This document shows, in pieces, positions 43,589 to 62,638 of a stretch of 64,000 bases of DNA. The position numbers and the translations under genes are program-made. Numbering within the stretch: position 1 is the first letter of the stretch; each line of letters opens with the position of its first letter. Under the pieces are notes generated by a model. The model had not been told where the DNA came from and did not search any database. It worked only from the letters and a program-made list of their open reading frames with translations. Source of the DNA: Vulcanimicrobiota bacterium (GTDB lineage Bacteria > Vulcanimicrobiota > Vulcanimicrobiia > Vulcanimicrobiales > Vulcanimicrobiaceae); assembly GCA_003151115.1 (NCBI GenBank), contig PLWS01000005.1, positions 310,001-374,000 on the forward strand, written 5' to 3'.

Positions 43589-43797
43589 AGACGCCGGTAC
43601 CTTCTTGTGGCTTCGGCATACACGCTTTGGCCGGTCGACGAAGTTGTCCCGTCCTACCGAATAGTCCGTAAAATAAGAAATTCCGCCCGCTGCGGTTCTT
43701 AGGATTCATCGTGCAAGAGTGGTTAACCGTATCGTCGAGTGTGGCAATTTTCCGCGAACGATCGAAATTGGTGTAACGAGCAACTAGAAGGTGTAAT
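43589..43797. other. Non-coding gap with one dispersed repeat
   Basis: No gene is supported between the catalase operator and the STAS gene. The segment 43646-43703 matches 52455-52514 over about 59 bases with some ten differences; shared parts include CCGTCC, AGTCCG and AAAATAAG. Nothing else was recognised. Confidence 0.55.
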
Positions 43798-45779: not shown

Positions 45780-45804
45780 GTAGCCCCAACGGGATTCGAA
45801 CCCG
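45780..45804 (-). other. Partial tRNA 3' end (att-like scar), copy 1
   Basis: Read on the minus strand, this gives a T arm with loop (CGGGTTCGAATCCCG) followed by TTGGGGCTAC, the 3' acceptor half of a tRNA. No 5' half pairs with it. Close copies lie at 52410-52436 and 54440-54464. Such truncated tRNA ends are typical of tyrosine recombinase attachment sites left by integrative elements. Confidence 0.65.
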
Positions 45805-45859
45805 AACTCAGGGGCGTTATATTTCTGTTAGTAGATCTAAAACCAGAAGTGCATTATGG

Positions 45860-46207
45860 TTAGTCACACTGGTAGACGAATTCGCCGTTAAATGGTAGGG
45901 AGATTTCGTATCTCGGGTTGTGCGTAAGCGGGGCAAACCCCGTGTTGTCGTTGTGAATGGTGTAGCCATTGGAACACACGGGGGGTTTGCTCGAGCACGT
46001 GTACACGTGAGGTTTATTGCCGGCTAAAGCCGTGAACCCGCTCGTGCAAGTCTGCGTAAGCTTGGTGGCTCCGGTGTATAGGTGCGCAGGCGCAGCAGAG
46101 GCGCCCATGGTGATTCTACTGCCGGTGATCATTCCTACAATCAATGTACACGTCGCTAGGGTGAAAATCAGGCCAAATTTTGGCCCGAAGGCGATCAGTT
46201 GTCTCAA
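45860..46207 (-). CDS. Secreted Cys-rich hypothetical protein
   Basis: A 115-residue exported protein: an N-terminal hydrophobic segment (FGLIFTLATCTLIVGMITG) and a mature part with five Cys (TQTCTSG, YTCSSKPPVCSNGY, YQCD). Disulfides are likely. The motif HVYTCSSKPPVCSNGY is the most distinctive. Unknown family. It begins 45 bases after the neighbouring carboxypeptidase-regulatory-like gene and reads in the same direction. Confidence 0.6.
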   Translation of the reverse strand: MRQLIAFGPKFGLIFTLATCTLIVGMITGSRITMGASAAPAHLYTGATKLTQTCTSGFTALAGNKPHVYTCSSKPPVCSNGYTIHNDNTGFAPLTHNPRYEISLPFNGEFVYQCD

Positions 46208-46252
46208 ATTAGGCGCTCCTTACAAAGCACAAAGAACGAAGGTTAGAACTGG

Positions 46253-46696
46253 CTATTTCGCTCCCGCTCCCTGCGTAATCGTTGCTGCCACGGTCTGCAG
46301 TTTGTCTCCCGATACGATGAACCGAATGGAAAACGACAGCTGTTCCGCGTTCATCGAACGGGTGTTGGGTATAGGGGACTCGTTCTCAGAGATTGTCGCT
46401 TGCCCCGGAACATTGATTTTGATAACGACCGTCGGCTTCTTGGAGATCGGCGCGCGCGCCGTGGAGCCGTCTCCCCAATTGATCGTACCGACTGTAAGCC
46501 GATACTTTCCGGGCTTCACATTTTGAAATACGGCCACGCCCGCGCGATTCGTTTTCGCCTGTGCGATGAGCACGCTGCCCGGGTCGCCCTCCAAGCCGAT
46601 GGGTACGCCGGGAATTGGGTCACCTTGTTTTGCAAACACCGGCGAAGCGATCAAGCCTGCCGCAAGGAACGCGCCAACAACGAAGGCAGCTTTCAT
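46253..46696 (-). CDS. Secreted protein with carboxypeptidase-regulatory-like (Cna-B-type) domain
   Basis: A 147-residue exported protein (signal peptide ending PVFAK). The mature region is a beta-sandwich of the transthyretin-like/CarboxypepD_reg class: IPGVPIGLEGDPGSVLIAQAKTNRAGVAVFQNVKPGKYRLTV. The second half, KINVPGQATI to TVAATITQGAGAK, adds more strands. A broken copy lies on the minus strand at 37750-37960. Confidence 0.75.
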   Translation of the reverse strand: MKAAFVVGAFLAAGLIASPVFAKQGDPIPGVPIGLEGDPGSVLIAQAKTNRAGVAVFQNVKPGKYRLTVGTINWGDGSTARAPISKKPTVVIKINVPGQATISENESPIPNTRSMNAEQLSFSIRFIVSGDKLQTVAATITQGAGAK

Positions 46697-46882
46697 CTGG
46701 ACTCCTTGTGCGTTTCACTGCCGACCAAAGCAAACCAATCCACGAGCTGCGCGTGGATGTTCACGACGTGCACAGATTGGCGGACGGCGATCCAAATGCT
46801 ACGGCGTGAGCCCAACTTCGAATGCTTCATCGAACCCACGGGTGAGAAAGTGTGTCAGGTTTCTTCCCGTCCATCTGCGCCG

Positions 46883-48400
46883 TTAATGGCAGTAAGGTGC
46901 GACGTACTGATCCTTCCCGGCAAAAAAATCGACCGTTCCACTGCTCGTTGTCGCCGCAGGCACGGTAAACGAATTGCCGGATGGCGTTACTTCATTTATT
47001 CCAAGATTCGTCATGCTTGCCCATTGCGGTGGGGCATTGCCCCCAAGCGATGCATAGATCGCGTAGCCGCAATGCGTTCCCGGAAAAGAGCCGGTAGTGG
47101 TCATGGTAACGGCGGGTGTTTGGCTGAACTTTAAATCATAGGTCGGATAGACGTAGCTTGAAGTTATATCGAGATAGATCAGTACCGTGCCGATCGAACT
47201 CGGTAACGCGCCGGGGCGGAAGGTTCCTGTGATTTGCGAGAACGTTCCCCAGGCCATCGTCATATACGAGGACGACGTTGCGTCATTCGATCCGAATGTC
47301 ACCGTTCCAGTATACGTATTATCCGCGGGCAATATCGACATCGGCTGAGAACCGGTAGGGGTTACATTACCCGATGTTCCTCCGCCGGTAAGCACCGACG
47401 TGCTGGTGGCGGGCGTCGAGAAAATGCCGCCGTTGGCGGCCAAAACGTAGAGCACTGGGCCGCCTTGGTTTGAGTAGCCGACGGTAAGTCCAACTCCGGC
47501 ACCGGGCTGGAGCAACCACCCGCCCGAGTTCAGATCGTAATAGTAGATGCTGCTACCGTTCGCATTGGCGGGGTAGCTCAGAACGAACAGGCCGCTGTTG
47601 AGCGTAGGCGCGATCGCCGATGCCGAGCCTGCAATCTGCGCGAAAGTCGCATCGGCTAAATTTTCGTACCAAATGCCGCCGGCAGAGTTTAAAATGAAGA
47701 GGTTGCCGCTCAAAGTATTGCTGCCGACGGATCCACTGCCGATCGAGTACGGAGTGTTCAGATCCCACGAGCCCGCGAGCGTCACGCCGGAGCCCGGCAC
47801 TTGGCTCCAGCTCCCGTTGTAGTTCCAAATAGCTTTATCGGCGCCGCTGCCGCCGTTTGTTGTCACATACACCGACCCGTCCAGCCCCGCCGTTACCGCT
47901 GCGGCGCCGCCGCCCAGTGCGGTCCAGCTGGTACCGTTATACGTATAGACGCCGCCGCCCGAGTTAATGACGTCGATTTGATTGCCGGCGGGGCTTCCGG
48001 CCGTGGCGACGGGGGCGACGGCTGCAATATGCTGGGCGAGCCCGGAGATGTTCGTCCACGTTCTGTTGGAGTAGTGCCAGATATACTTATCAGGACCACT
48101 CGGTAGAGTTGAGAGCGCCCATAACGTTCCGTCCGGAGCGGCTGCAATTTCGCTTGCCGAACCGGCGATTTGCGTGAAGTGCAAGCTTTGAAGCGCAAGA
48201 GCGTTGGGTTTGTCCGGCGGCAGCATCGCGCTTGATGGAAGGATCGCCGTGTGCGCCATAGGCGCAGCCGGAATCGACGCAGGCGAGATCGATTGCAGCA
48301 TAAGCTGTTGCGGTGGCAGAGTCGAATGAGCGCCACCCGAACACGAACTCAGACCGATTGCGAAAACGATGGGAGCTAAACGAATCGCGCGTACAGACAT
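46883..48400 (-). CDS. Tectonin-repeat lipoprotein with a distinct C-terminal domain
   Basis: A 505-residue lipoprotein (lipobox LSSCSGG). Residues about 60-325 are tectonin-like repeats (APDGTLWALST, WHYSNRTWTNISGLA, VYTYNGTSWTALGGG, SAGGIWYENLAD, IYYYDLNSGGW). After a short linker the C-terminal 150 residues form a domain unlike Vgb or GH64: FGSNDATSSSYMTMAWGTF, IYLDITSSYVYPTYDLKF, HCGYAIYASLGG. So this is the same anchor and propeller with a third kind of C-terminal module. It diverges from 48557. Confidence 0.8.
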   Translation of the reverse strand: MSVRAIRLAPIVFAIGLSSCSGGAHSTLPPQQLMLQSISPASIPAAPMAHTAILPSSAMLPPDKPNALALQSLHFTQIAGSASEIAAAPDGTLWALSTLPSGPDKYIWHYSNRTWTNISGLAQHIAAVAPVATAGSPAGNQIDVINSGGGVYTYNGTSWTALGGGAAAVTAGLDGSVYVTTNGGSGADKAIWNYNGSWSQVPGSGVTLAGSWDLNTPYSIGSGSVGSNTLSGNLFILNSAGGIWYENLADATFAQIAGSASAIAPTLNSGLFVLSYPANANGSSIYYYDLNSGGWLLQPGAGVGLTVGYSNQGGPVLYVLAANGGIFSTPATSTSVLTGGGTSGNVTPTGSQPMSILPADNTYTGTVTFGSNDATSSSYMTMAWGTFSQITGTFRPGALPSSIGTVLIYLDITSSYVYPTYDLKFSQTPAVTMTTTGSFPGTHCGYAIYASLGGNAPPQWASMTNLGINEVTPSGNSFTVPAATTSSGTVDFFAGKDQYVAPYCH

Positions 48401-48556
48401 TCAAGCCTCCGCCAAAGAGAATGGGCCCGCCGAATAACTTCTAGTGGGTCGCAGACGGGCTCGCTTAGCCGTTTACAGTAAAATCTCCCGCAACGGCCGG
48501 TCCCGGCGTATATTAAGGAAGGCGAGCCACGTTCGGCGGGGAAAGCTCGAGCGGCT

Positions 48557-50422
48557 ATGAGTGTCCGTCTCTATTTCATTTCCGCACTTGCGTTTACCGT
48601 CGTCCTGGCGGGATGCTCAAGCTCACGACAGATGACTCCGCAGACCGGCGGCGTCATGCTCGCTACGCCGCAGTCGGTTTCACCTGGCTCCATCGCCGCC
48701 CCGCCCATGGCCAAAACCGCGATTCTTCCGGCCAGCGTTATGAACGTCAAACCGCAGAGTGCGATTCAGGGTGCGAATTGGACGCAGATTTCTGGTGCGG
48801 CAAGTTACGCCGCCGCCGCTCCGGACGGTTCACTCTGGGTGCTCTCAACGGGGACCTCAGGAACCGACAAGTACATCTGGCATTATGTGGGCGGAACGTG
48901 GACGAATATTTCCGGGCTGGCCTTGCGGCTATCGGTGGCGCCCGACGGCACGCTCTACGCGATCAACTCTGGCGGCGGAGCTTACTCGTATAGCGGCGGA
49001 ACATGGACCGCGCTGGGCGGCGGATGCAGCGACATCACCGCTGCTTCGGACGGCTCGATCTACGTGCTCTCCAACGGCAATTCTGCCGGCAGCGATCAAG
49101 CGATTTGGCATTACACTTCCAGTTGGTCCCAAGTGCCGGGTTCGGGCGTACGCATCGCCGCGTCGTGGGATCCGAATAGTTTCACGCTGTCGAATGGCAC
49201 CGTATCGGCCAATGGTTTGTACGTACTCAACTCCATCGGCAGCATCTATTATAAGAATCCCAATAACAGTTTCGTGCAGCTCCCCGGGAGCGCATCGGCA
49301 GTCGCACCGACGACCATCGGCGGGGTCTTCGTGCTCGGTTATCCCACCGATAGCAGCGGCAACGTTATCTACTATTACGATCTCAACGCTCAGGGCTGGA
49401 GTGCGCTGAGTGGATCCGGAGTCAGCATCTCGACCGACGGCGCGCACCTTTATGCGATCGGAAGCTCGGGCGGTATTTTTTCGACGCCGGTCAAGACAAC
49501 GAGTGGCACGATCACCGAGTATGCAATCACGCCGTTCTCTCAGCCGATGGGCATCACCGCTGGTCCGGACGGGAACCTCTGGTTCACGGAGTCTGCTCAG
49601 GTCGCCAATAAGATCGGCAAAATCACGCCGGGCGGCACGTTGAGCGAATATGTGATTCCAACGAGCAATGCCGGCGCTTCCGGAATCGCCGCAGGCTCCG
49701 ATGGCAATCTTTGGTTCACCGAATCGTCGACGAACCTTTTTGGCGGAACCGCCAGTAATAAGATCGCAAAAATTACGGTCGGCGGCGCATTCACCGAGTA
49801 CGTAATCCCGACGGCCAACGCGCAGGCGACAGGTATCGCGGCGGGCCCCGACGGTAATCTCTGGTTTACCGAATACAACAGCAACAAGATCGGCAGGATC
49901 ACGACAAGCGGCACGATCACGGAATTTGCGATTCCGACAAATACGTCAGGGCCGGCGGGCATCGCGGCGGGCGCCGACGGTAACCTCTGGTTTACCGAAA
50001 GCTCTAGCAGCAAGATCGGGAAGATCACCACGAGCGGCGTGATCACCGAGTTTTCGATTCCGAGCGGTTCGGGGGCTTCAGGCATTGCTGCAGGACCGGA
50101 CGGCAATCTGTGGTTCACGGAAAACGGTGGGCTCTTCGGAAGCAGCAGCGAGATCGGAAAGATCACGACTGCCGGCGTCTTCACTGAATATGCGATTCCG
50201 ACCGCCAACGCGAACGCTGGAGGCATAGCTGCGGGCCCAGACGGGAACCTCTGGTTTACTGAAAGCAGCGGCAACAAGATCGCTAAGATCACCCCGACCG
50301 GCACGATCACCGAGTACGCGTTTCCGACAAGCGGCCAAAAGCCGAATGCCATTGTGGCGGGACCGGACGGCAACCTTTGGTTCACGAGCCTTGCAAACAA
50401 GGTGGGGAAGATTGCCCCGTAG
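48557..50422 (+). CDS. Dual-propeller lipoprotein: tectonin plus Vgb repeats (copy B)
   Basis: A 621-residue lipoprotein (lipobox LAGCSSS). It is very similar to 38005-39873, including the segment PASVMNVKPQSAIQG (NVRPQSAIQG there), the tectonin repeats and the C-terminal Vgb repeats. The Vgb half has about eight repeats, each with NLWFTE. A close paralog follows directly at 50459 in the same orientation, with 36 bases between. Confidence 0.87.
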   Translation: MSVRLYFISALAFTVVLAGCSSSRQMTPQTGGVMLATPQSVSPGSIAAPPMAKTAILPASVMNVKPQSAIQGANWTQISGAASYAAAAPDGSLWVLSTGTSGTDKYIWHYVGGTWTNISGLALRLSVAPDGTLYAINSGGGAYSYSGGTWTALGGGCSDITAASDGSIYVLSNGNSAGSDQAIWHYTSSWSQVPGSGVRIAASWDPNSFTLSNGTVSANGLYVLNSIGSIYYKNPNNSFVQLPGSASAVAPTTIGGVFVLGYPTDSSGNVIYYYDLNAQGWSALSGSGVSISTDGAHLYAIGSSGGIFSTPVKTTSGTITEYAITPFSQPMGITAGPDGNLWFTESAQVANKIGKITPGGTLSEYVIPTSNAGASGIAAGSDGNLWFTESSTNLFGGTASNKIAKITVGGAFTEYVIPTANAQATGIAAGPDGNLWFTEYNSNKIGRITTSGTITEFAIPTNTSGPAGIAAGADGNLWFTESSSSKIGKITTSGVITEFSIPSGSGASGIAAGPDGNLWFTENGGLFGSSSEIGKITTAGVFTEYAIPTANANAGGIAAGPDGNLWFTESSGNKIAKITPTGTITEYAFPTSGQKPNAIVAGPDGNLWFTSLANKVGKIAP

Positions 50423-50458
50423 GTTCGATCGCATCGCGCGCGCTATATTGGAGCGTTT

Positions 50459-52366
50459 ATGAGTGTTCGTTCTTTCTTATTTTCCGCACTTGCATTTACC
50501 GTCGTCTTGGCGGGATGCTCGGGCTCAAGACACGTGACGCCGCAGACCGGCGGCGTCATGCTCGACACGTTGAAGTCGGTTTCTCCCGGTTCAATAACAC
50601 CGGCGCCGATGGCGCACACCGCGATTCTTCCGGCCAGCGTCATGGCCGTAAAACCGCAAAGCACCATTCTGGATCCGACCTGGACGCAGCTTCCCGGCGC
50701 CGGTATTTTCGCAGCCGCCGATCCCTATGGGACGCTGTGGGTACTTTCAAGTCAGCCCAGCGGTCCGGATAAATATATTTGGCATTACGCGAACGGAGCG
50801 TGGACCAATATTTCTGGGCTGGCATCGCGCCTTGCGGTTTCACCGGCTGACGGAACGTTGTACGCGCTGAATTCCGGCGGCGGAACATACCACTACAGCA
50901 ACGGGGTATGGACGGCTCTCGGCGGTGGCGCAACCGACATTTCAGTCGCCGTTGACGGCTCGTTTTACGTGCTCTCCAACGGAAATTCCGCGGGCAGCGA
51001 TCAAGCGATATGGCATTTCGCGAATGGTTTCTGGAACCAAGTACCCGGCTCCGGAGTGAAGATTGCCGCTCCTTTAGATATTCAGAGTTACACGCTTTCG
51101 AGCGGAGCCATATCGGGCTTCGGCTTGTACATTCTTAATTCGATCGGCAGTATCTACTACGAAAATTCAAATAACAGTTTCGTGCAATTGCCGGGGAGTG
51201 CATCGGCGGTGGCTCCGACGACAAACGGCGGTGTTTTCGTGCTCGGTTATCCCTTCAGCAGCAGCGGCAATTCACCGTACTATTTTGACTTAAGCGCTCC
51301 CGGCTGGACATTGCTAAGCGGCTTGGGTGTTAGCATTTCGGCTGACAGCACGCACCTCTACGCCATCGGTTCGACCGGAGCTATTTACGTTTCTCCCATT
51401 ACGCGCACAACCGGGACTATTGCCGAGTATTCGCTTCCAACGACCACGTGGGCCGATCACTCAGTATCTTCGCCTCGAGCTGAAAGCCTCGCCGCAGGGC
51501 CGGACGGTAATCTCTGGTTTACGGAGGGTGAGCGTTATGCGTCCACTTGTTCTAATCATATCGGAAAAATCACCACGGGCGGCACCGTGACCGAGTATCT
51601 CCTGCCCAACGTTAACGCCGACCCCTGCGTAATCGCCACGGGCTCGGACGGCAACCTCTGGTTTGCCGAATTCAACCAGAACAAGATCGGGAAGATTTCC
51701 ACTGGGGGAACGGGGGTCTCAGAGTATCCGATACCAACGGCTAACGCATGTTCGTGCTTCATCGCTGGGGGGCCCGACGGGAACGTCTGGTTTACGGAAA
51801 CCAACAGTAACAAAATCGGCAGGATCACTACAAGCGGCACGATCATTGAATTTGTGATCCCCACGGCGAACGCGCTTCCGGGCGGGCTGGTGGCCGGCCC
51901 GGACGGCAACGTGTGGTTTACCGAAGAGTCTAGCCGCAAGATCGGGAAAATCACCCCGAGCGGCACGATCAGCGAGTATCCGCTTCCAACGACGAGCACG
52001 GGTGCGCCGCTTGAAATCACTGCGGGTCCTGACGGCAATTTATGGTTTACCGAAAACGTCTTGTATGATTACAGCAACATTGGCAAAATTACGACCGCAG
52101 GGGTGATAACCGAGTATGGAGTGCCGACAGTTAACGCGCAGCCCTTCGGGATAACGGCGGGTGCGGACGGTAACCTGTGGTTTGCCGAAAATGGCAGCAA
52201 CAAGGTCGGAAGAATCACAACAAGCGGGTCATTTGCCGAGTACCCACTTCCGAATGGGGACTCGCAACCGCGTGAAATCGCAGCCGGGGCGGACGGTAAA
52301 GTCTGGTTTACCGAATGGAATGCGAATGTGGGCGACGCTTTCCGGATCGGAAAGATCACTCCGTAG
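50459..52366 (+). CDS. Dual-propeller lipoprotein: tectonin plus Vgb repeats (copy C)
   Basis: A 635-residue lipoprotein (lipobox LAGCSGS), tandem partner of 48557. The first 60 residues are nearly identical to copy B; the propeller halves have diverged more. The Vgb blades here include variants such as NVWFTE and ANGSNK. Repetitive codons make the DNA rich in internal direct repeats of about 126 bases, a potential site for recombination with copy B. Confidence 0.87.
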   Translation: MSVRSFLFSALAFTVVLAGCSGSRHVTPQTGGVMLDTLKSVSPGSITPAPMAHTAILPASVMAVKPQSTILDPTWTQLPGAGIFAAADPYGTLWVLSSQPSGPDKYIWHYANGAWTNISGLASRLAVSPADGTLYALNSGGGTYHYSNGVWTALGGGATDISVAVDGSFYVLSNGNSAGSDQAIWHFANGFWNQVPGSGVKIAAPLDIQSYTLSSGAISGFGLYILNSIGSIYYENSNNSFVQLPGSASAVAPTTNGGVFVLGYPFSSSGNSPYYFDLSAPGWTLLSGLGVSISADSTHLYAIGSTGAIYVSPITRTTGTIAEYSLPTTTWADHSVSSPRAESLAAGPDGNLWFTEGERYASTCSNHIGKITTGGTVTEYLLPNVNADPCVIATGSDGNLWFAEFNQNKIGKISTGGTGVSEYPIPTANACSCFIAGGPDGNVWFTETNSNKIGRITTSGTIIEFVIPTANALPGGLVAGPDGNVWFTEESSRKIGKITPSGTISEYPLPTTSTGAPLEITAGPDGNLWFTENVLYDYSNIGKITTAGVITEYGVPTVNAQPFGITAGADGNLWFAENGSNKVGRITTSGSFAEYPLPNGDSQPREIAAGADGKVWFTEWNANVGDAFRIGKITP

Positions 52367-52843
52367 ACCCCTGCGCCATAAGAAAAGCTCGTGGTTACGC
52401 GGTTAAATTCGTAGTCCCAACGGGATTCGAACCCGCGATTGGCGGTCCCGGCCAGCCCCGTCCGCTACCGAACAGTCCGGAAAATAAGGGATTCCGCACG
52501 CTTCGGCTGTTAGGCGTTCCCGCCCAGTCCCGGCCGCTCCCGACCCGTCCGTGACAAAGTGTGACACGCGAGCCTTCAGACGATCTCTGTGAGGCGCCAC
52601 TCACGTTCATGCCGCTCTTGGGGATTGCGGCTTAGATAGCTTGCAGGATGGGTGGGGTCGGTACAACCTCCGGCTTCCACGCCCTGAAGGCCGCGTGCTA
52701 TTGATTCGGTGACGGTCGAGAGCCGTGATGCCTTTGTGGGGTTATTGCTGTTTGGCGAGAATTGGGACCGCTCGACTTTCGGTCGCCGGAACAAAACGCC
52801 GGCGCCGTGCGAAGACGGCGCCGATCCGATGTGGTGGTGACAT
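52367..52843. other. Intergenic 477-base region holding repeats, no gene
   Basis: It holds the tRNA-remnant repeat (52381-52436), the dispersed repeat shared with 43646-43703 (52455-52514), and a GC-rich inverted repeat near 52796-52823. A minus-strand frame at 52576-52794 exists but has no recognisable protein features, so I do not annotate it. Confidence 0.6.
52381..52436 (-). repeat. tRNA 3'-end remnant with shared flank, copy 2
   Basis: Minus-strand T arm GCGGGTTCGAATCCCGT followed by TGGGACTAC, plus a 25-base flank (AGAAAAGCTCGTGGTTACG) that is repeated at 54407-54464. Copies at 45780 and 54440 share the tRNA part. No complete tRNA can be folded here. Confidence 0.65.
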
Positions 52844-53443
52844 ATGAATACTGAATCGCAGTTGCTTAAACAGCTCCGCGAGCGGATCGCCGAACACGCC
52901 CGGACTGCGGAAAACTACGAACGCAAGGGCATCGGTCCGTTGCTCGACGATCCGGTACGCAACCACGCGGAGATCGACGCGAGACGCGTGGAGCTTGATA
53001 AGATCACGAACACGCGCATCCGGCCGACGCTGCTGGAGTGGGAAAAATGCGCAAACACAGCTCGCGCTCGATCTTCGGAAGACGCCCTTGTAAATGGCTG
53101 GGGCAAAGCTTCGCCGGCGGAGCTGCGCAAAGATGCGCAAAAGTTCTGCGATGACGTCGACGACGATTCCCGGCGAGGCGCGAAAGGGCAAGAGCGTCGT
53201 CGACCAAGTATAGAGGTCGTGACCTACGGTCGACCAAGCCTAGCGAAGTTGGAGAAAGAGCATCAGCAGAGACTCGCCGAGAGGAATCTGAGTACCCACG
53301 AGCTCGCGGTCGAGCTCGACATAGATTTGCGCGTACGCGAAGTCCGCGGACCTAGGGAGCACGCGCTTCTCGCGGAGATCGAGATCGAGCGCGAGTGCGA
53401 AATCCGCGGAATGAGCCGTAGCGAGATCTTGGAGGAGAGCTAA
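52844..53443 (+). CDS. Hypothetical charged protein in repeat-flanked segment
   Basis: A 199-residue protein, strongly charged and probably helical or coiled coil (LLKQLRERIAEHARTAENYERKG; KLEKEHQQRLAERNLSTHELAVELDIDLRVREVRGP). No family recognised. It lies between two direct repeats (52381-52436 and 54407-54464) that resemble attachment sites, so it may belong to a small mobile segment. The ATG start is clear. Confidence 0.55.
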   Translation: MNTESQLLKQLRERIAEHARTAENYERKGIGPLLDDPVRNHAEIDARRVELDKITNTRIRPTLLEWEKCANTARARSSEDALVNGWGKASPAELRKDAQKFCDDVDDDSRRGAKGQERRRPSIEVVTYGRPSLAKLEKEHQQRLAERNLSTHELAVELDIDLRVREVRGPREHALLAEIEIERECEIRGMSRSEILEES

Positions 53444-53453
53444 GCGCCTTCCT

Positions 53454-53627
53454 TTGGTATTCGCTCCGCGCCACTTATCGCGGCTGCCGAACTTCGATTA
53501 CGCCGCGCGCGAATTCCGGAAGTTCGTCCAAGAAGAGTACGGGTTTTACCGGGAGGCAACCACATTACGAACGCTCGTTGATTGCCGACGCTTAGAAGCC
53601 GAGGTTTCAGAGCTGATCCGTCGTTAA
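53454..53627 (+). CDS. Small hypothetical protein (57 residues)
   Basis: Starts with TTG ten bases after the preceding stop and encodes a basic, helical-looking sequence with NFDYAAREFRKFVQEEYGFY and a C-terminal LEAEVSELIRR. It reads in the same direction as the preceding gene and may be part of the same transcript. Low support. Confidence 0.35.
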   Translation: MVFAPRHLSRLPNFDYAAREFRKFVQEEYGFYREATTLRTLVDCRRLEAEVSELIRR

Positions 53628-53751
53628 TGCGCTCGTCGCCGACGTGTCATTTTTGAAATGGCGGGCCAATTACTAGTATATAAAGGAAAGAGCCCGATGA
53701 AATCTAGCTTGCGCCGCGGTGCCTGGGCCATCCACAAGCACTTACGCGCAG

Positions 53752-54216
53752 CTACATATGAAAATGGTAGGTGTAGCTGAAATCTTGGTCACGGCCATAG
53801 CCGCTTGGCGTGTCCACGAAGCGGAAAAGCTTCAAGGCGTAACCGGAGGGGCAGTCGGCGTCGCCGTTGTCTCTCCGCCCGACAGCAAGTGTAAATGCGT
53901 TATTGGGATCGACGCAATACCAATCGTCTTCACTCGTGCTGCCCCTCCAATTCGTGCCGTCCGCCGCTTGCGCATACACGTTGAAGCCGACGGCATAGGT
54001 TAAAAAGCTGCCCACGTACGTGCAGGCTCCGCCTTCAATCTTCCACCATCCTTGGGAAGCGACCGCGCCGGCCGCAACCCAAATCGGAAAGGTTGTATCG
54101 TTACAGGCCGTCAGCAGAACGTGCTGGGTTGGGGTTTGCGCGGCCAGTGGTGCTGAGGCGAGCACAGGCAAGGCTAACGCCAGGCATATCGCAGAAACGT
54201 GAGTGATAAGACGCAT
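53752..54216 (-). CDS. DUF1036-like secreted protein
   Basis: A 154-residue exported protein (signal peptide LALALPVLASAPLAAQ). The mature domain starts LTACNDTTFPIWVAAGAVASQGWWKIEGGAC, which fits the DUF1036 pattern of an N-terminal C-N/N-x-T/V then GWW-I--G-C. Other Cys occur at EDDWYCVD and DADCPSG. It sits inside the repeat-flanked segment 52381-54464. Start chosen at the ATG at 54216. Confidence 0.7.
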   Translation of the reverse strand: MRLITHVSAICLALALPVLASAPLAAQTPTQHVLLTACNDTTFPIWVAAGAVASQGWWKIEGGACTYVGSFLTYAVGFNVYAQAADGTNWRGSTSEDDWYCVDPNNAFTLAVGRRDNGDADCPSGYALKLFRFVDTPSGYGRDQDFSYTYHFHM

Positions 54217-54406
54217 CTTGGGACCTTTCGAATGAAGCATGCCGTTCGGGCGGCGTCTCCGGGAATCTTGCGAAGTCCGGCACAACTCCGCGAATGCTGA
54301 TCGTGGGGCGGTGCTTGGTGATGCCATTGCTAGCGCGGTCACGGTTCGCCGGATGCGCTTTTGACAAGCTCGGCGCCACAACGGTGCCACGCACCGATGG
54401 CCATCA

Positions 54407-54464
54407 AGAAAAAAGCCCGTGGTTACGTTTCGAGATTGGTAGCCCCAACGGGATTCGAAACCGC
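54407..54464 (-). repeat. tRNA 3'-end remnant with shared flank, copy 3
   Basis: Minus-strand reading gives GCGGTTTCGAATCCCGT followed by TGGGGCTACCA, so this copy ends with an acceptor-like CCA. The 20-base flank (AGAAAAAAGCCCGTGGTTAC) matches copy 2. The tRNA body is absent. Together copies 2 and 3 bracket a 2-kb segment. Confidence 0.65.
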
Positions 54465-54907
54465 TGGCTGGTTACCATGCATTCACATGGATTGGCATGG
54501 GCTCAATGAGGATCGAGGAATCAGCCCTTTCGGTTACCATGGATTACCATACGTTATAGCCTGTAAGTAGAAGACGAAGTAGAAGGCCCGCCAGACCTGT
54601 GGCGTGATCTTCCCGAACTGTTGACGCGCGACCGAAACGAGCGGTTTGCCCAACGATTACGGCGTTTCGATTTCCGACACGTTTGCGGGCGTCTTCAAGT
54701 TCGATACGCGCGGTCATGCAGCCGGGAACGTCTTCGTCCGTTTTCAACCTCGCTGACAGATCACGTCAGAGCGGTAACATGGGTTCGGAATTACGATAAA
54801 AGTCGCACCCGCGGACCGCCGGCCGGATTACTCATCGATGATCAGGCGCACGTTCCAAGGATCTTCTTCGGATCGTCGCACCGGAACGTTACATTGAAGC
54901 ATCCGGC

Positions 54908-55105
54908 TTAACATACCGGAGAGCGTTCGACCGTCCGCGCCAGCAGGATGTGCGGACACCGTTTCTCCGACGCGGCGATGCCCCACGCGTTCGCGTCACC
55001 GGTCGGAATGGGGTACTCGGTGATGGTGCCCGCTCGTCTGACGAGCGAGGAGTAAATACCGCCTGAGCCGGGCAGCGGCTTGTGTATCGCGTGAACGCCT
55101 CGGCT
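54908..55105 (-). pseudogene. Remnant of a tectonin/Vgb dual-propeller gene
   Basis: A minus-strand frame contains GSGGIYSS, then GTITEYPIPTGDANAWGIAA before it runs into unrelated sequence and a stop at 54908. This is the joint between the two propellers of genes such as 38005 and 48557 (GGIYSTPV, GTITEYAI). Only about one blade is left. Confidence 0.65.
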
Positions 55106-55304
55106 AGCGAGGTATCCTCATTTAAGTATCGGCCGTATGGTCAACCTCGCTACGGGATAGTGGATAGGGCGCCCGAAAACGACGCCCCCCGCCCGAAGAG
55201 TCCGGTGTAGTGCCGACTTTTTTTCTGTTGTCGTGAGGGGCAAGCGAGCGGCTGCGCCGCAGAAATTCTTTTCGACTTCACAAAAGCGGCGTAACATTTA
55301 CCGG

Positions 55305-55709
55305 ATGAAGACAAGAATAGCGAACGAACCATATGCGGCCGACGTACAACAGCTCGCACGCCGCAATTCCGACTTCCGGCGCGTGCTGAATACAACCGAA
55401 CGTTCCCAACTCGTTCTCATGTGCGTGCCGGCCGGCGGCGAGATCGGAGAGGAAATCCATGCGGGGACCGATCAAATCCTGGCCTTTGTCGAGGGCAGCG
55501 GAGAAGCAATATTTGTGAATGGGCGACGGCCGGTTGCCGCTGGTGATGTCGTCGTCGTACCCGCGGGTACGCAGCACAATTTTGTGGCGGACACCGGCGG
55601 AGCGCTTAAACTGTTTACGGTATACACACCACCGCATCATCGCCCGGGAACCGTTCACGCAACCAAAGCCGACGCAGACGCGGACACATCCGATTCGTTT
55701 GCGCTTTGA
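55305..55709 (+). CDS. Cupin domain protein
   Basis: A 134-residue single-domain cupin. Motif 1 region is GGEIGEEIHAGTDQILAFVEGSGEAIF (a single His, with Glu residues before it); motif 2 is DVVVVPAGTQHNFV with its His. Family members bind a metal and may be enzymes or sensors. The ATG at 55305 begins the conserved region; a longer frame upstream lacks support. Confidence 0.8.
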   Translation: MKTRIANEPYAADVQQLARRNSDFRRVLNTTERSQLVLMCVPAGGEIGEEIHAGTDQILAFVEGSGEAIFVNGRRPVAAGDVVVVPAGTQHNFVADTGGALKLFTVYTPPHHRPGTVHATKADADADTSDSFAL

Positions 55710-55734
55710 CGATTAGAGTCTGCGCGCAGGGCCG

Positions 55735-56007
55735 CTAAACTGGTGGCTTCGAGGCAATCACCGCGTTATAGACTGCGGCCACGATCGCACCCGCGATTGC
55801 GCTTACGATGACTGCCCATCCGCCCACGAAAAACGCGATGCCGACTCCCATCCTATAATAACCGGCACCGCCCATCATGCCGTAGCCGTGCATGCCGAAC
55901 ATCGAAAACCCCATCGGCGCGCAAAAAAGAATCGCGGCGGCCAGAGCGGCAACGCCGAAGGCGGCGGCGAGTCCGAGCGGATTGAGTTGAGCATATCGAG
56001 TTCCCAT
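55735..56007 (-). CDS. Small membrane protein, Gly/Met-rich
   Basis: A 90-residue protein with two hydrophobic segments (LGLAAAFGVAALAAAILFC; GIAFFVGGWAVIVSAIAGAIVAAVYN) separated by a Gly/Met/Tyr-rich loop (FGMHGYGMMGGAGYYRMG). Such loops may bind metals, but no family was recognised. Confidence 0.55.
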   Translation of the reverse strand: MGTRYAQLNPLGLAAAFGVAALAAAILFCAPMGFSMFGMHGYGMMGGAGYYRMGVGIAFFVGGWAVIVSAIAGAIVAAVYNAVIASKPPV

Positions 56008-56136
56008 TGTCTTGCGTCCTTAGCGGTCTGGGTGTGCAACCTTGCACCCGCAGGCTGAGACGGCCTACAAACGTATGTTCGAGCAGTGGCCTAGCCTAGT
56101 GGCTTTGCTCGAAAAGTGGTATGCTAAGCTTAATTC

Positions 56137-56152
56137 GAGCGAACGTTCGATA
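56137..56152. promoter_or_regulatory. Palindrome upstream of the TetR gene, candidate operator
   Basis: CGAACGTTCG (56140-56149) is a perfect palindrome lying 28 bases before the TetR start codon at 56178. Its position in the leader of the regulator gene and of the aromatic operon fits an autoregulatory TetR site, by inference. Confidence 0.45.
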
Positions 56153-56177
56153 GAACAGGACGAGCCGAGAACGAGGC

Positions 56178-56750
56178 ATGCAACAGCCCGCATACGACCG
56201 CCGCTTCGAGGATGCGCTGGACAGCGCGGAAGCGCTCTTTGCCGAAAAAGGGTTTCACGCTGCGAGCATGCGCGACATCGCCGGCGCTGCCGGGGTGAGC
56301 GTCGCGGGCCTGTACTACTATCTTCCGAGTAAACAAACGGCGCTCTACATCGTTTGCAATCGGACCTTCGACGATCTGGACGCGGCCACGCGGGAGTCGA
56401 AATCGATTAAGGAACCCAAACGCGCGCTCTACACTTTCGTACGCGGGCATCTGCGCTATATGGTTGACAACCACAGCGCATATCGCGTGCTGCTGCGAGA
56501 CATGGAAGCGGCGGAAGGCGAGTTTCGCGAGAAGCTTCGCGCGCGCAGACGGCGCTATTTTTCGACGGCGTCCGGCTTGGTGAGTCGCGTGCAGCCCAAG
56601 TCAGGCGCTGTTTCGGCGCGGATCGCCGCCGGCGCGCTCTTCGGAATGCTGAATTGGGCGCCGATGTGGTACCAAAGCAAATTGGACGGCGAGGTCGACG
56701 ATCTGGCCGGCAAGATGGTGGCGCTCTTCCTGAGCGGTGTCGCATCGTGA
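56178..56750 (+). CDS. TetR family regulator of the benzoyl-CoA operon
   Basis: A 190-residue regulator with the TetR helix-turn-helix (residues about 15-60: MRDIAGAAGVSVAGLYYYLPSKQTALY). The GTG of the following hydratase gene overlaps its stop codon (GTGA), so it is encoded in the operon it is likely to control. The effector may be an aromatic acyl-CoA, by analogy with other aromatic operons; no direct evidence. Confidence 0.88.
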   Translation: MQQPAYDRRFEDALDSAEALFAEKGFHAASMRDIAGAAGVSVAGLYYYLPSKQTALYIVCNRTFDDLDAATRESKSIKEPKRALYTFVRGHLRYMVDNHSAYRVLLRDMEAAEGEFREKLRARRRRYFSTASGLVSRVQPKSGAVSARIAAGALFGMLNWAPMWYQSKLDGEVDDLAGKMVALFLSGVAS

Positions 56751-57511
56751 CCGGCGAGCGCATTGAGTGCGGCACCGAAGGCGCATTGGGTCATATTCGG
56801 CTTCATGCCGGCCCGCTGAACATCCTGAACACGGACGATCTGCGTGCGCTACACGACGCGGTGCGCACTCTTGACAGCTGCGCCGTTATTTTGCTCGAGG
56901 CGGAGGGCGAGCGTGCCTTCTGCGCGGGGGTTGAAATTGCAGATCACGTGCCGGACCGCGCGGACGCAATGCTCGATGCGTTCAACGGTGTGGTATTGGC
57001 GTTCCGTGAAGCTTCGCCGGCGATCGTTTGCGCGGTGGGCGCCCCGGCGCTGGGCGGCGGATTTGAAATCGTGCTACTCTCGGATCTAGCCATCTGCTCG
57101 ACGCGCGCTCACTTCGCGCTTCCCGAAGTGCAGCTGGCGGCGCTCCCGCCGATTGCATGTGCGGCGTTGCCGCGAATTGCCGGCGAGCGGCGTGCCTTCG
57201 ATGCGATCCTCACCGGAAAGCGCATCGATGCGGAAACGGCCCTCGCATGGGGTTTGGTTTCGGAAATAACGGCACCCGAAACGCTTCGGGTTCGCGCACG
57301 AGCGATTTGCGAACAATTGCTTTCGTATTCGCGCGGGGCACTGGTGGCGTGCAAGCGCGCTCTGCGCAGCCGCAGTCTTGCGGATTCCATGCATATCTAT
57401 CGTGACGAACTGTTGCCGACGGATGATGCGGCCGAAGGCATAAAAGCATTTCTCGAAAAGCGTCCGCCGGTTTGGACGCATACCGATAACCCTGTGGAGG
57501 TTTCCTCATGA
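56747..57511 (+). CDS. dch: Enoyl-CoA hydratase family: probable cyclohexa-1,5-dienecarbonyl-CoA hydratase
   Basis: A 254-residue crotonase-fold protein: FCAGVEIADH, then GAPALGGGFEIVLLSDLAIC with the oxyanion-hole glycines. In ring-reduction pathways this enzyme adds water to the diene made by benzoyl-CoA reductase. The assignment rests mainly on position just before the OAH- and Had-like genes and the four reductase subunit genes. Alone it could be any enoyl-CoA hydratase. Its GTG start overlaps the TetR stop; its end overlaps the next ATG by four bases. Confidence 0.78.
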   Translation: MTGERIECGTEGALGHIRLHAGPLNILNTDDLRALHDAVRTLDSCAVILLEAEGERAFCAGVEIADHVPDRADAMLDAFNGVVLAFREASPAIVCAVGAPALGGGFEIVLLSDLAICSTRAHFALPEVQLAALPPIACAALPRIAGERRAFDAILTGKRIDAETALAWGLVSEITAPETLRVRARAICEQLLSYSRGALVACKRALRSRSLADSMHIYRDELLPTDDAAEGIKAFLEKRPPVWTHTDNPVEVSS

Positions 57512-58344
57512 GCGTTGCGGCGCAAGCCCCCCGCCAAACCGAATCCGACATCCTTTATAAGGTAGAGGACCGAGTCGCCACCGTCACGTTCAATAGGCCG
57601 GAGGCTTATAACGCTTACACGACCGAGACACTGGTTCGTTTGCATGAAGCGCTGCGGCGAGCGATGTGGGATGACGAGGTCGGCGTGGTGGTCCTTACCG
57701 GTGCGGGACGCGCGGCCTTTTGTACCGGCGGCGACGTCAAGGAATACGCGGAGCGCTACATCGAGCATCCCGAGCAGTTCAGGAAGTACATGGTGCTTTT
57801 TCAAGACTGCTTGGACGCCATTCGCGCTATGGGCAAACCGACAATCGCCAGACTCAACGGCATGGCGGTCGGCGGCGGAAACGAGATGAACATGGCGTGC
57901 GATCTGGCGGTTGCCGCGGATCATGCGACGATTCGGCAAGTCGGTACGCGGGTGGGTAGCGTTGCGGCGGGCGGCGGAACGCAGTGGCTGCCGATTATGG
58001 TCGGCGACCGCCGCGCGCGCGAGATGCTCTTTTTGTGTGAGCCCATCACCGCGGCGCAGGCACTCGATTGGGGACTCGTCAACCGCGTCGCGCCGTTCGA
58101 AGCTTTGGATTCCGTCGTGCGCGATCTATGCGACAAGCTGCTCGAGAAGTTTCCCGAGTGCCTCAGCTACACGCAGTGCCAAGTCAACTACTGGAAGGAC
58201 CAGGCGTGGTACGCAACGATCGGTCACGCTCGCGAGTGGCTTGCGCTCCACTTCGCACATGAGGAAACCGCCGAAGGCATGCGCGCCTTCGTTGAAAAGC
58301 GCGCGCCGGACTATGCGGCGATCCGGAGCCGGCGGCGCTCGTGA
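57508..58344 (+). CDS. oah: 6-oxocyclohex-1-ene-1-carbonyl-CoA hydrolase-like protein
   Basis: A 278-residue crotonase-fold protein. The segment FCTGGDVKEYAERYIEHPEQFRKYM followed by GMAVGGGNEMNMACDLA resembles the OAH/BamA ring-opening hydrolase as I recall it, and the residues after it (RQVGTRVGSVAAGGG) also resemble BadI, the 2-ketocyclohexanecarboxyl-CoA hydrolase. The protein lacks a segment of roughly 50-80 residues that I remember in canonical OAH (about 370 residues). It may be a shorter OAH or a BadI-like ring-cleaving enzyme. Translation overlaps both neighbours (ATGA and GTGA). Confidence 0.75.
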   Translation: MSVAAQAPRQTESDILYKVEDRVATVTFNRPEAYNAYTTETLVRLHEALRRAMWDDEVGVVVLTGAGRAAFCTGGDVKEYAERYIEHPEQFRKYMVLFQDCLDAIRAMGKPTIARLNGMAVGGGNEMNMACDLAVAADHATIRQVGTRVGSVAAGGGTQWLPIMVGDRRAREMLFLCEPITAAQALDWGLVNRVAPFEALDSVVRDLCDKLLEKFPECLSYTQCQVNYWKDQAWYATIGHAREWLALHFAHEETAEGMRAFVEKRAPDYAAIRSRRRS

Positions 58345-59366
58345 AAGCCGCGCTGTTCTACGGACCGCACCGGCCGCTCGAGCTGGAAGAGCGTCCGATT
58401 CCGAGAGCCGGACCAGGCGAGATTGTGATCAAAGTTGCTGCCTGTGGCTTATGCCACACCGATCTTCACTATATCGATCACGACGTTCCAACATTTGCAA
58501 AGCCGCCGCTCGTGCTCGGGCATGAGGCGTCGGGCATCGTTTCGGAAGTCGGTGCCGGCGTAGAGGAATGGCACGCCGGAGACCGCGTGCTCATTCCAGC
58601 CGTGCTCTCTTGCGGCAGATGCGAAGCGTGCCGCCGCGGACGGGAGAACATCTGCGAACGCGGTGTGATGCTCGGCAACCATGTGGACGGCGCCTATGCC
58701 GAATACTTGCGCGTACCGGCCAAAGACGCACTCACGCTGCCGATGGATCTGCCGCTCGAGGAAGCGTGCCTGATCGCCGATGCCGTGTCGACACCGTACC
58801 ATGCGGTTGTCAATCGCGGCGAAGTTCGGCCCGGCGAGCGCGTTGCCGTCTTCGGCTGCGGCGGTGTCGGCATCAATGTCGTGCAGATCGCGTCGGCCAT
58901 TGGAGCCGACGTGTGGGCGGTCGATCTCAAGCCCGAACGGCTTGCCTTCGCGCAAGAATTCGGCGCCGCGCATGTTGTGGACGCCGGCAGCGCGCCCGAA
59001 CCCGGGAAAGCCATACGGCGTGAAACCGGCGGTGTCGACGTCGCATTCGAAGCGATCGGCAGCCCAGCCACCATTCGGCAGGCACTCGAGTCGCTGCGCC
59101 GCGGCGGACGCTTGATCATCGTCGGCTTCAGTATGGAATCTGTCGAATTGCCCGCGGGCAAGATCATGTTCCAAGAGCTCGAGATTCGCGGATCGCTCGG
59201 CTGCAGGCCGGTCGACTATCCGCGCATTATCGAGTTGGCGCGCACCGGAAAGATCCGGGTCGCACAGCTCGTCACAAACCGCGTATCGCTTGCGCAGATC
59301 AATAGCGGTTTCGACGCGCTACGCGAAGGTCGCGGTTTGCGTACCATCGTCGTTCCGTCCGCTTAG
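58341..59366 (+). CDS. had: 6-hydroxycyclohex-1-ene-1-carbonyl-CoA dehydrogenase-like zinc alcohol dehydrogenase
   Basis: A 341-residue medium-chain dehydrogenase. Catalytic zinc ligands: the Cys in ACGLCHTD and the GHE motif (residues 60-62); structural zinc Cys91, 94, 97 and 105 (CGRCEACRRGRENIC); nucleotide fold VFGCGGVGINVVQ. In the benzoyl-CoA pathway Had oxidises the hydroxy product of Dch. The role is inferred from place: between oah and the reductase subunit genes. GTG start overlapping the oah stop. Confidence 0.82.
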   Translation: MKAALFYGPHRPLELEERPIPRAGPGEIVIKVAACGLCHTDLHYIDHDVPTFAKPPLVLGHEASGIVSEVGAGVEEWHAGDRVLIPAVLSCGRCEACRRGRENICERGVMLGNHVDGAYAEYLRVPAKDALTLPMDLPLEEACLIADAVSTPYHAVVNRGEVRPGERVAVFGCGGVGINVVQIASAIGADVWAVDLKPERLAFAQEFGAAHVVDAGSAPEPGKAIRRETGGVDVAFEAIGSPATIRQALESLRRGGRLIIVGFSMESVELPAGKIMFQELEIRGSLGCRPVDYPRIIELARTGKIRVAQLVTNRVSLAQINSGFDALREGRGLRTIVVPSA

Positions 59367-59368
59367 AA

Positions 59369-60556
59369 ATGCACCACGTGGATACGCTCATCGGGAACGA
59401 GAGTCTGGAAGAAATCGTCGAGAGTTGCGTTCAAACGATCGAAACGCCGGGCTTTGCCGACGCGCAGGCATGGAAGGCAGAAGCCCCCGGCCGCGCGATC
59501 GCCGGCTGCTTCCCGGTCTATTCACCGGTCGAAGTATTTGACGCAGCGGGGATGCTCGCCGTCGGTTTGGCCGGCGGCGGCAATCGCATGGAAATCGCGC
59601 ATGCGGACTCGCGCTTTCAGTCTTTCGTCTGCTCGATCGTCAAGAGCACCCTCGAGCAAGGTATGACCGGAATGCTCGCAGAGTTCGATGCGCTCGTTTT
59701 TCATTCTATCTGCGATCCGGCGCGTAATTTGGCCAGCGTGTATCAACGCAACTTCCCCGACAAGAGAGTCGAGTACATCCACTTTCCGCAGAACCTCGGT
59801 GTTCCGGAGGCGATCGTCTTCTTGACCGGCGAGTATGCTCGGGTCGCGACCTCGATGTCCGAGCTGACCGGAAAGTATCCCAGTGCCGATGCTCTGCGCG
59901 GGAGCATTGCAGTTTACAACGAGGTGCGCGCGTTGATTCGGCGTTTATATGCAATACGCAGCGAGGCGCCGCACCGGTTGAGCGCGCGCGAACTCTATCC
60001 CCTGGTGCGCTACGGCAACCTCGTGGCACCGGAAATTCACATCGACGTGCTGACGCGCGCGCTGGCAGGCGTCCTGCAGCGCGAAGGCCGCCCACGCGAT
60101 CGCGTGCGCGCGATCCTGGCGGGATCGTTTTGCGAGCAGCCGCCACTCGACTTGATCGCGGCGATTGAAGATGCCGGTTGCTATTTGGTCGACGATGATT
60201 TCCTCATCGGTCGCCGCTTCTTTTACGCCGATGTGGATGCTTCAGCGGAAGATCCCTATCGCGCGCTGGCGCAGGCCTACGTTGACGGCAGCGTCCCGGT
60301 AGCGGTAAAGCACGATCTGCGCATTTCCAAGTCGGAGGCGCTCGTTGCACGCGCCCGAGCCCACAAAGCGGACGCCGTGATCGTGCTGTGCGCCAAATTT
60401 TGCGAACCGGCGCTCTTCGAATACCCGCTCTATCGGCGCGCACTCCAAGCTGCCGAGATTCCGCACATCTTCCTGGAGTTCGAAGAGAAGATGTGGATGT
60501 TCGAGCGGACCAAAACCGAGATCGAGACCTTCGTTGAGTCGCTGCTGTTTGCGTAG
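59369..60556 (+). CDS. bzdN: Benzoyl-CoA reductase subunit, BzdN/BcrC-like
   Basis: A 395-residue protein of the HgdB/BcrB/BcrC dehydratase superfamily that carries the substrate-reducing part of the enzyme. Conserved-looking Cys that could bind [4Fe-4S] clusters: AGCFPVYSPVEV (Cys47), HSICDPARN, GSFCEQPP and CAKFCEPALFEYP. Its size fits the smaller of the two such subunits (BcrC/BadD/BzdN). It starts 2 bases after had. Which of bzdN and bcrC it resembles more must be settled by phylogeny. Confidence 0.85.
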   Translation: MHHVDTLIGNESLEEIVESCVQTIETPGFADAQAWKAEAPGRAIAGCFPVYSPVEVFDAAGMLAVGLAGGGNRMEIAHADSRFQSFVCSIVKSTLEQGMTGMLAEFDALVFHSICDPARNLASVYQRNFPDKRVEYIHFPQNLGVPEAIVFLTGEYARVATSMSELTGKYPSADALRGSIAVYNEVRALIRRLYAIRSEAPHRLSARELYPLVRYGNLVAPEIHIDVLTRALAGVLQREGRPRDRVRAILAGSFCEQPPLDLIAAIEDAGCYLVDDDFLIGRRFFYADVDASAEDPYRALAQAYVDGSVPVAVKHDLRISKSEALVARARAHKADAVIVLCAKFCEPALFEYPLYRRALQAAEIPHIFLEFEEKMWMFERTKTEIETFVESLLFA

Positions 60557-60558
60557 GA

Positions 60559-61830: not shown

Positions 61831-62618
61831 AATATTTCGCGGGGGTCGACGTCGGATCGACTCAGGCAAAGTGCATCATCGTCGACGAGCAGCGGACGAT
61901 CAGCGCCCGCGCGTTGGTCGAAACCGGTGCGAACGTCGCGCGCGCCGCCGATCGCTGCTTCGCCGCGGCCCTCGAAGCCGGCGGGATCGCGCGTGAAAGC
62001 ATCGCATGCGCCGTCGGCACCGGGTACGGCAGGTTCAAGGTTTCGTTCGGGGATCTGCAGATCACCGAGATCACCTGCCACGCCAAAGGCGCGAGCCTGC
62101 TTTTCCCTCAGACGAGAACGGTCATCGACATGGGCGGGCAGGACGCCAAGGCGATCAGCGTGCGCGACGGCGAGGTAGTCGATTTTGTGATGAACGACAA
62201 GTGCGCGGCCGGCACCGGCCGCTTTCTCTCGACGGCGGCCGAAACGCTGGGCCTTGGACTCGAAGAGATCGGCGAGATCTCGCTGCGCGCGCGCAATCCC
62301 GTGCGGTTATCGACGGTCTGCACCGTCTTCGTCGAGTCGGACATCATGGCATACGTTGCACAGGGCAAGAAGATCGAAGACATTTTGGGCGGCATCCACA
62401 GCGCGATCGCGGCGAGAACGATTGCGCTAGTGCGCCGCGTCGGCCTCGAACCTCAGTTCACGTTTACGGGCGGCGTCTCGCTCAACGTGGGCATGGTCAA
62501 AATGATGGAAGAGAAGCTGGGGCAGCCGCTCAACGTATCGGCGGATTCGCATTACATGGGAGCGATCGGAGCGGCCCTGTTCGCATCCGAGCACGCTTTA
62601 GTTCCAGCCGGAAACTGA
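61827..62618 (+). CDS. bzdP: Benzoyl-CoA reductase ATPase subunit, BzdP/BcrD-like
   Basis: A 263-residue ASKHA-fold ATPase of the BadF/BadG/HgdC family, which couples ATP hydrolysis to electron transfer. The phosphate-binding motif is AGVDVGSTQAKC, the second is VIDMGGQDAKAI, and the bridging [4Fe-4S] cluster Cys are Cys126 in NDKCAAGTGRFL and Cys165 in STVCTVFVESD. Its partner (next gene) is about the same length, unlike the unequal BcrA/BcrD pair. Confidence 0.87.
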   Translation: MKYFAGVDVGSTQAKCIIVDEQRTISARALVETGANVARAADRCFAAALEAGGIARESIACAVGTGYGRFKVSFGDLQITEITCHAKGASLLFPQTRTVIDMGGQDAKAISVRDGEVVDFVMNDKCAAGTGRFLSTAAETLGLGLEEIGEISLRARNPVRLSTVCTVFVESDIMAYVAQGKKIEDILGGIHSAIAARTIALVRRVGLEPQFTFTGGVSLNVGMVKMMEEKLGQPLNVSADSHYMGAIGAALFASEHALVPAGN

Positions 62619-62638
62619 TCGGAGGGATTTTTACGGAA

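Follow-up and report, generated by a model that had tools for sequence, protein, structure and literature searches.

The stretch of DNA analysed here (the window, 64,000 nucleotides) corresponds to positions 310001–374000 of contig C4 in genome G000, which comprises 2.55 Mb in 8 contigs; coordinates below refer to G000 where no other genome is named. Its right-hand part very probably belongs to an array, accreted at tRNA-Glu, of small mobile elements with site-specific integration, most of them non-autonomous and moved in trans by tyrosine integrases. Three motifs in the window are displaced tRNA-Glu 3′ ends. The motif GGGATTCGAACCC occurs on the plus strand at 45791–45803 and 52422–52434 without mismatches and at 54450–54462 with one mismatch. 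It forms part of a 25-base repeat, GTAGCCCCAACGGGATTCGAACCCG, with 96–100% identity between copies, and the minus-strand reading of this repeat, GGGTTCGAATCCCGTTGGGGCTAC, corresponds to the T-arm and acceptor 3′ strand of a tRNA. Copy 1 (45780–45804, found by motif and repeat searches and nhmmer), copy 2 (52411–52435, with one mismatch, GGGACTA) and copy 3 (54439–54463, with one mismatch, GGTTTCGAA) are all on the minus strand. As the initial annotation had noticed, the copies near 45780, 52410 and 54440 overlap no tRNA gene in the window according to ARAGORN and Rfam, and copies 2 and 3 have a common flank, which extends over 54 nt at 81% identity (52383–52436 versus 54411–54464). ARAGORN predicted a single tRNA in the window, at 5757, and Rfam added only a tmRNA at 11752; these ordinary RNA genes, tRNA-Pro(CGG) (5757–5830) and tmRNA (11752–12106), lie outside the finding. 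In a chance test on the window, the 13-base motif at two mismatches was not significant by itself. A 24-base pattern with up to three mismatches matched the 2.55 Mb genome 15 times, versus none for the reversed control pattern; a shorter 20-base pattern was found at 21 places.

The initial annotation had proposed looking for an intact tRNA with the same 3′ end. Such a gene, tRNA-Glu(CTC), is located at C8:16555–16627 on the minus strand, and its 3′ 20 bases are identical to those of the displaced copies. Displaced ends in the orientation of this tRNA are found on C8 at 1595, 6233, 9880, 10380 and 12808 and on C4 at 379312, 378147, 364440, 362412 and 355781, which supports the earlier reading of the motifs as attachment-site scars left by tyrosine recombinases. 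With its end at 379572, 0.24 kb beyond the last core, contig C4 breaks off inside the array. Judging from synteny with a congener, C4 and C8 join into an island of about 49 kb with at least ten displaced ends in a single orientation. The island would start somewhere at about 36.9–45.8 kb of the window and continues beyond the right end of the window onto the second contig. The initial annotation had proposed a genomic island at 45.8–54.5 kb; the kind of region was recognised correctly, but the island is far longer, spans two contigs and consists of about ten or more cassettes rather than a single unit.

The congener in question, G002, has counterparts of the upstream flank of tRNA-Glu(CTC) (from C8:16600 on) and of the left-hand part of the window on one contig, only 11.8 or 4.4 kb apart. 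The left-flank homology reaches C4:345441 or 346887, and the corresponding interval in G000 (C4:346.9–379.6 plus C8:1–16.6, in kb) is about 49 kb long; the comparison with close relatives advised in the initial annotation thus reveals an expanded and a much smaller version of the same site. The two G002 distances belong to two versions of the tRNA-Glu(CTC) locus, at G002:C1:65000–104000 and G002:C2:300000–319999, which, together with 7% contamination, suggests two strains in a mixed-strain bin. A second intact tRNA-Glu, with the anticodon TTC, is located at C3:9327–9401 on the minus strand and also carries an island. In G002 and G006, single contigs span both of its flanks (from C3:10407 and from C6:4755 onwards).

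Cores were collected from the fetched contigs of G000 and eight relatives, 108 in total. There are 43 in G001, 14 in G006 and three in G003; among congeners, one contains up to 43 copies and another is nearly empty. In a wider set of 60 relatives, copies are present in the majority of members of the family and of its sister family, with none or one in remoter members of the class. All 26 contigs with at least two cores have a single core orientation (three of the cores, on G000:C6, are far apart). Cores of the CTC type and the TTC type are intermixed within arrays, and four are CTC/TTC hybrids. A core variant with an extra G (TTCGGAATCCCG) was observed at G000:C8:10380, G000:C5:285744, G001:C74:3140 and 5829, G001:C84:4192 and G006:C32:11274; it accompanies both A and C arms and is spread over three genomes, as though halves of cores had been swapped. 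All the genomes are draft MAGs, in which arm repeats of about 150 bp can break short-read contigs, and several G001 contigs terminate at cores; the order of cassettes across such breaks is therefore a reconstruction.

In the proposed mechanism, the element would form a circle carrying attP, composed of a P arm of about 130 bp with tandem putative integrase-binding repeats, a core equivalent to the tRNA-Glu 3′ end and a P′ side, often with a terminator-like hairpin. A tyrosine integrase would recombine the core of the circle with the 3′ end of an intact tRNA-Glu gene; the incoming cassette would rebuild the tRNA, and the former 3′ end would be shifted downstream together with all earlier insertions. 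Repeated insertion would produce a row of cassettes separated by displaced tRNA ends, with the youngest cassette adjoining the tRNA, and recombination between cores could delete cassettes or change their order. In this genus hardly any cassette has an intact integrase; the others would have been moved in trans by the integrases of autonomous relatives. The circular intermediate, the action in trans, the pairing of integrases with arm families and the route between cells are reconstructed from the patterns described below.

Each cassette closes in one of several recurrent modules of about 130 bp that resemble attP arms and start with tandem repeats of 10–12 bp. Clustering of the 95 bp preceding the cores (link score of at least 32 versus a shuffled maximum of 14.5) yielded families of 21, 16, 5, 4, 4, 3, 3, 2 and 2 members plus singletons, and 16 intact tRNAs formed a separate cluster. 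The repeats at the module start are CTTCTACTTCGTCTTCTACTT in family A, TGTACCATTTTTGTACC in B, TATAACAGAAATATAAC in C, TGTCACATTTTGTCAC in C′ and GGTTGCAGTTTGGTTGCA in E. Tandem repeats of period 10 or 11 and at least 8/9 matches are present in 31 of 88 arms, versus 1.5% of comparable stretches within cassettes. Homology between members of family A stops sharply (105 pairs, quartiles 147–155 bp including the 20-bp core), and their cargo differs. In the 11 genomes searched, the family-A repeat was found with at most one mismatch at 14 places, all 99–106 bp (about 104 bp) from a tRNA-Glu core; one further place, with three mismatches, in G035, is tied to none of the collected cores. This layout is that of an attP arm with arm-type integrase sites, to which an integrase would presumably bind.

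Two modules in the window are complete and, like the cores, are on the minus strand. The module beside copy 2 (52432–52564, nhmmer E 9.5e-37) belongs to family B/C and starts with tandem GTGTCACACTT–TGTCACGG repeats at about 52551–52567; that beside copy 3 (54460–54592, E 3.4e-52) belongs to family A and contains a CTTCTACTTCGTCTTCTACTTAC repeat at 54563–54585. Copy 1 is the farthest-distal core found, and its arm remnant is limited to the last 14 bp or so of a B/C-family arm (to about 45814). A probable B/C-family arm relic that lacks a core is located at 43646–43701 on the minus strand (nhmmer E 1.4e-4, together with the sequence itself). On the other side of copy 2, the stretch 52383–52410 (minus strand) is the putative P′ side of a 6.6-kb cassette, with the terminator-like sequence GTAACCACGAGCTTTT; it is common to 54411–54438 and resembles the sequence after the intact tRNA-Glu(TTC). 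The stretch 54411–54438 (minus strand) is the putative P′ side of a 2.0-kb cassette beside copy 3, with the terminator-like flank GTAACCACGGGCTTTTTT, as at copy 2. General sharing of a repeat unit by the P and P′ sides is unsupported (2 of 26 versus a 1.7% background), and since such sharing is rare, some cassettes may be composites.

The 68 core-to-core segments range from about 0.2 to 30 kb (median 2.35 kb). Of these, 54 are shorter than 5 kb and 16 shorter than 1 kb; in 14, no gene was called. Mini-elements of about 0.2–0.5 kb, hardly more than attP, recur among them, and gene direction is balanced (90 forward versus 97 reverse). In the window, the 6.6-kb cassette from copy 2 to copy 1 (45781–52431, minus strand) encodes virginiamycin-B-lyase-like and tectonin-like propellers and a small CarboxypepD_reg-like protein, and contains no integrase. 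The duplicated propeller genes and decayed fragments mentioned in the initial annotation are indeed present, the propeller genes being duplicated inside one cassette. The 2.0-kb cassette from copy 3 to copy 2 (52412–54459, minus strand) encodes a DUF1036 protein and an ORF with no Pfam match; the corresponding tRNA locus of G006 contains pieces with 90% identity to it. A 13.7-kb cassette occupies the rest of the window (54440–64000, minus strand) and reaches C4:378147. Its genes at 56178–62618 encode a TetR regulator, two enoyl-CoA hydratases, a Zn-ADH, two HGD-D subunits and a BcrAD/BadFG ATPase, an acyl-CoA gene cluster of anaerobic type, and a propeller gene lies in the part of the cassette outside the window.

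Array cargo is ordinary in general and includes Vgb-lyase-like propellers, PDZ/GAF proteins, a glycosyl hydrolase 1, an SDR, a hemerythrin, an Na/H antiporter, a sigma factor and a multicopper oxidase. Secreted Vgb-like propeller lipoproteins occur in several arrays (window 46883–52366, G000:C3:922–2685, G000:C5:289137–290966 and C4:376136–377917); those on C3 and C5 constitute one-gene cassettes of 2.3–2.5 kb. The propeller protein has one relative in viral contigs, 41% identical. A PADLOC scan for defence cargo detected restriction genes in G032 elements only and none in the tested elements from G000 and G001. The one-gene propeller cassette on C5 is part of a cluster of three tRNA-Glu ends with arms, enclosing two cassettes (C5:285744–291486), which is far from any detected tRNA and may be either a moved array or a secondary site.

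There is also indirect sequence evidence that cassettes have passed between species. The 4.64-kb cassette between the cores at C8:6233 and C8:1595 is 99.2% identical over 4663 bp to G006:C32:20728–16087, and backbone identity between the two genomes is 84.7%. The alignment opens on the first base of one core and closes on the final base of the other; beyond it the sequences are unrelated on either side, and the boundaries are contig-internal in both genomes. Both copies contain the same integrase stub, so the transfer came after the loss of the integrase. The tRNA-proximal cassette of G000 (C8:16555–12808) has a counterpart, with 94% identity over 2.1 kb, in the G006 cassette that follows the shared 4.64-kb one, and the order of neighbours around the shared cassettes differs between the two genomes. 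Pieces of other cassettes have 92–97% identity between genomes with 78–85% backbone identity. According to these sequence comparisons, related peat bacteria appear to exchange cassettes across species, though the cassettes have no working integrase gene of their own.

Neither a PF00589 search nor tblastn detected an intact integrase in the tRNA-Glu arrays of G000. The loss of the integrase suggested in the initial annotation thus holds as far as an intact gene in the array is concerned, but a trace survives outside the window: a C-terminal stub of about 47 aa at C8:5988–6131, directly after a core, is 57% identical to the integrase of a relative. Stubs of this kind were found beside cores. Matches of the L101 frame at cores, obtained with tblastn, were dismissed, as this frame reads through the core itself. 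The four PF00589 genes of G000 are an XerD-like gene, a gene by tRNA-Sec, a gene by a displaced tRNA-Asn end (C6:621582) and a gene near the end of C1. Since no intact tRNA-Glu integrase was found in G000, its array may be immobile today. In the relatives G032 and G035, intact integrase genes are located about 90–100 bp from tRNA-Glu(TTC), convergent with the tRNA, with open frames of 413 or 433 codons; the proteins contain SAM-like and catalytic domains, and the G032 integrase also has a sub-threshold Arm-DNA-bind match. The integrase-bearing interval of G035 closes in a B/C-family arm with GTCTAAC repeats. In the genomes searched, no integrase partner was identified for several arm families, A and D among them, and family A was never found adjoining an integrase. 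Pattern scans of viral contigs for a helper phage gave no match to the arm repeats of families A, B, C and C′.

Part of this evidence would also suit a single large tRNA-Glu island that once had an integrase and later decayed, with the internal ends produced by tandem duplication or rearrangement: there is no intact integrase in the array, some arms are decayed, gene fragments occur and the propeller genes are duplicated within one cassette. Such an origin is nevertheless improbable, since successive ends differ in arm family and cargo, mini-elements of about 0.2–0.5 kb recur, one cassette moved alone between species with exact core boundaries, and G000 and G006 have their shared cassettes in a different order.

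An integron, in which an IntI-type integrase captures cassettes at attI and the repeats are attC sites, would likewise give rows of cassettes that lack an integrase, mostly hold a single gene and have a conserved site module at one of their ends. Here, however, the array begins at an intact tRNA-Glu, not at intI/attI, with no PF00589 gene there in G000; the core is a tRNA T-arm and acceptor end, gene orientation is unbiased and the site-adjacent integrases are of the SAM_3/Arm-DNA-bind phage type, making an integron very unlikely. Least likely of all is that the motifs are part of a regulatory RNA resembling a tRNA, or of a dispersed tRNA-derived repeat that multiplied by copying with no site-specific integration. 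The sequence is tRNA-derived and of high copy number, and many copies are followed by terminator-like hairpins, but the copies are lined up behind tRNA-Glu genes in one orientation, and interspecies homology spans unrelated cargo and ends exactly at two cores. Rfam has no match at the motifs, so the objection foreseen in the initial annotation, that all copies might be parts of one regulatory RNA, does not apply; nor does the other, presence at the same place in distant relatives, as the content is not conserved in place.

Accretion at tRNA-Glu is of a kind already known from additive islands of Methylophilaceae, from IME/CIME accretion and from Islander tDNA islands. The fGI-2 of Ca. Methylopumilus (Betaproteobacteria) is described, in the excerpted account, as an additive island with recurring tRNA-Lys ends (PMC10872708). 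As in that description, recurring tRNA 3′-end repeats border segments of variable size and content (68 here), but the present array is at tRNA-Glu in Eremiobacterota. Arm modules, bare attP mini-elements and exact-boundary exchange, all measured here, do not appear in that excerpted account of fGI-2 (PMC10872708). The same source characterises the tycheposons of Prochlorococcus, in a secondary description, as tRNA-targeting tyrosine-recombinase elements of 4–200 kb that carry host-like cargo and form genomic islands (PMC10872708); as far as that description goes, they resemble the present elements in target, recombinase type and cargo.

CIMEs are cis-mobilizable elements that retain att sites and lack integration and transfer genes, and in IME/CIME accretion each incoming element inserts at the att site holding the gene end (PMC5704250). 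Tandem elements at one target gene, with att sites retained in decayed ones, are common to that process and the array described here. Same-orientation displaced ends downstream of an intact tRNA, smaller sites with conserved flanks and apparently attP-like arms all fit it. Unlike IMEs and CIMEs, the present arrays have up to eight ends per contig, elements down to about 0.2 kb and ordinary chromosomal cargo, and one element moved between species after integrase loss. Islander marks each tDNA island by an intact tRNA and a same-orientation displaced 3′ fragment (PMC4383910), a combination also found here. It requires an integrase per island and a length of at least 2 kb, and reported four arrays of at least three islands in 2168 genomes (PMC4383910); given these requirements, arrays of the present type would be missed.

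With integron arrays, the tRNA-Glu array has in common small, mostly one-gene cassettes, a site module at one end, long rows and, presumably, movement by an integrase in trans; unlike integrons, it has no attI/intI and no orientation bias, and its entry site is a tRNA gene. Although similar in operation to an integron array, it does not belong to that class, as neither of the two defining integron features tested was found. It differs from the known kinds in its density, in having bare mini-elements and several arm specificities, and in the sequence evidence that an integrase-less cassette moved between species. A literature search of limited coverage found no paper on tRNA-fragment cassette arrays or on non-autonomous islands moved in trans. 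A wider reading can be offered tentatively: the arrays could represent an integron-like cassette pool on tRNA genes, that is, a stock of non-autonomous cassettes shared among species, whose short attP arms have several specificities and which trans-acting integrases capture and shuffle at tRNA-Glu and, to a lesser extent, at tRNA-Asn. On this view they would be an ongoing exchange system, not only the scars of decayed islands.

Such arrays escape island-finding programs that expect an integrase in each island. If trans-mobilised tRNA-end cassettes are common in uncultured phyla, ordinary metabolic genes have a second way, besides integrons, of being captured and passed between species. The arm modules provide a sequence handle, as arm plus core can be searched for in any genome, and the arm families predict which integrases would pair with which cassettes.

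Displaced 3′ ends of tRNA-Asn were also observed, at G000:C6:615302, 621187, 639947 and 642374, in one orientation, with eight in G001 and five in G006; accretion is accordingly not confined to tRNA-Glu. Among the tRNA-Asn ends on C6 is an intact integrase gene (C6:621582–622748), with a small HTH_17 gene just before it.
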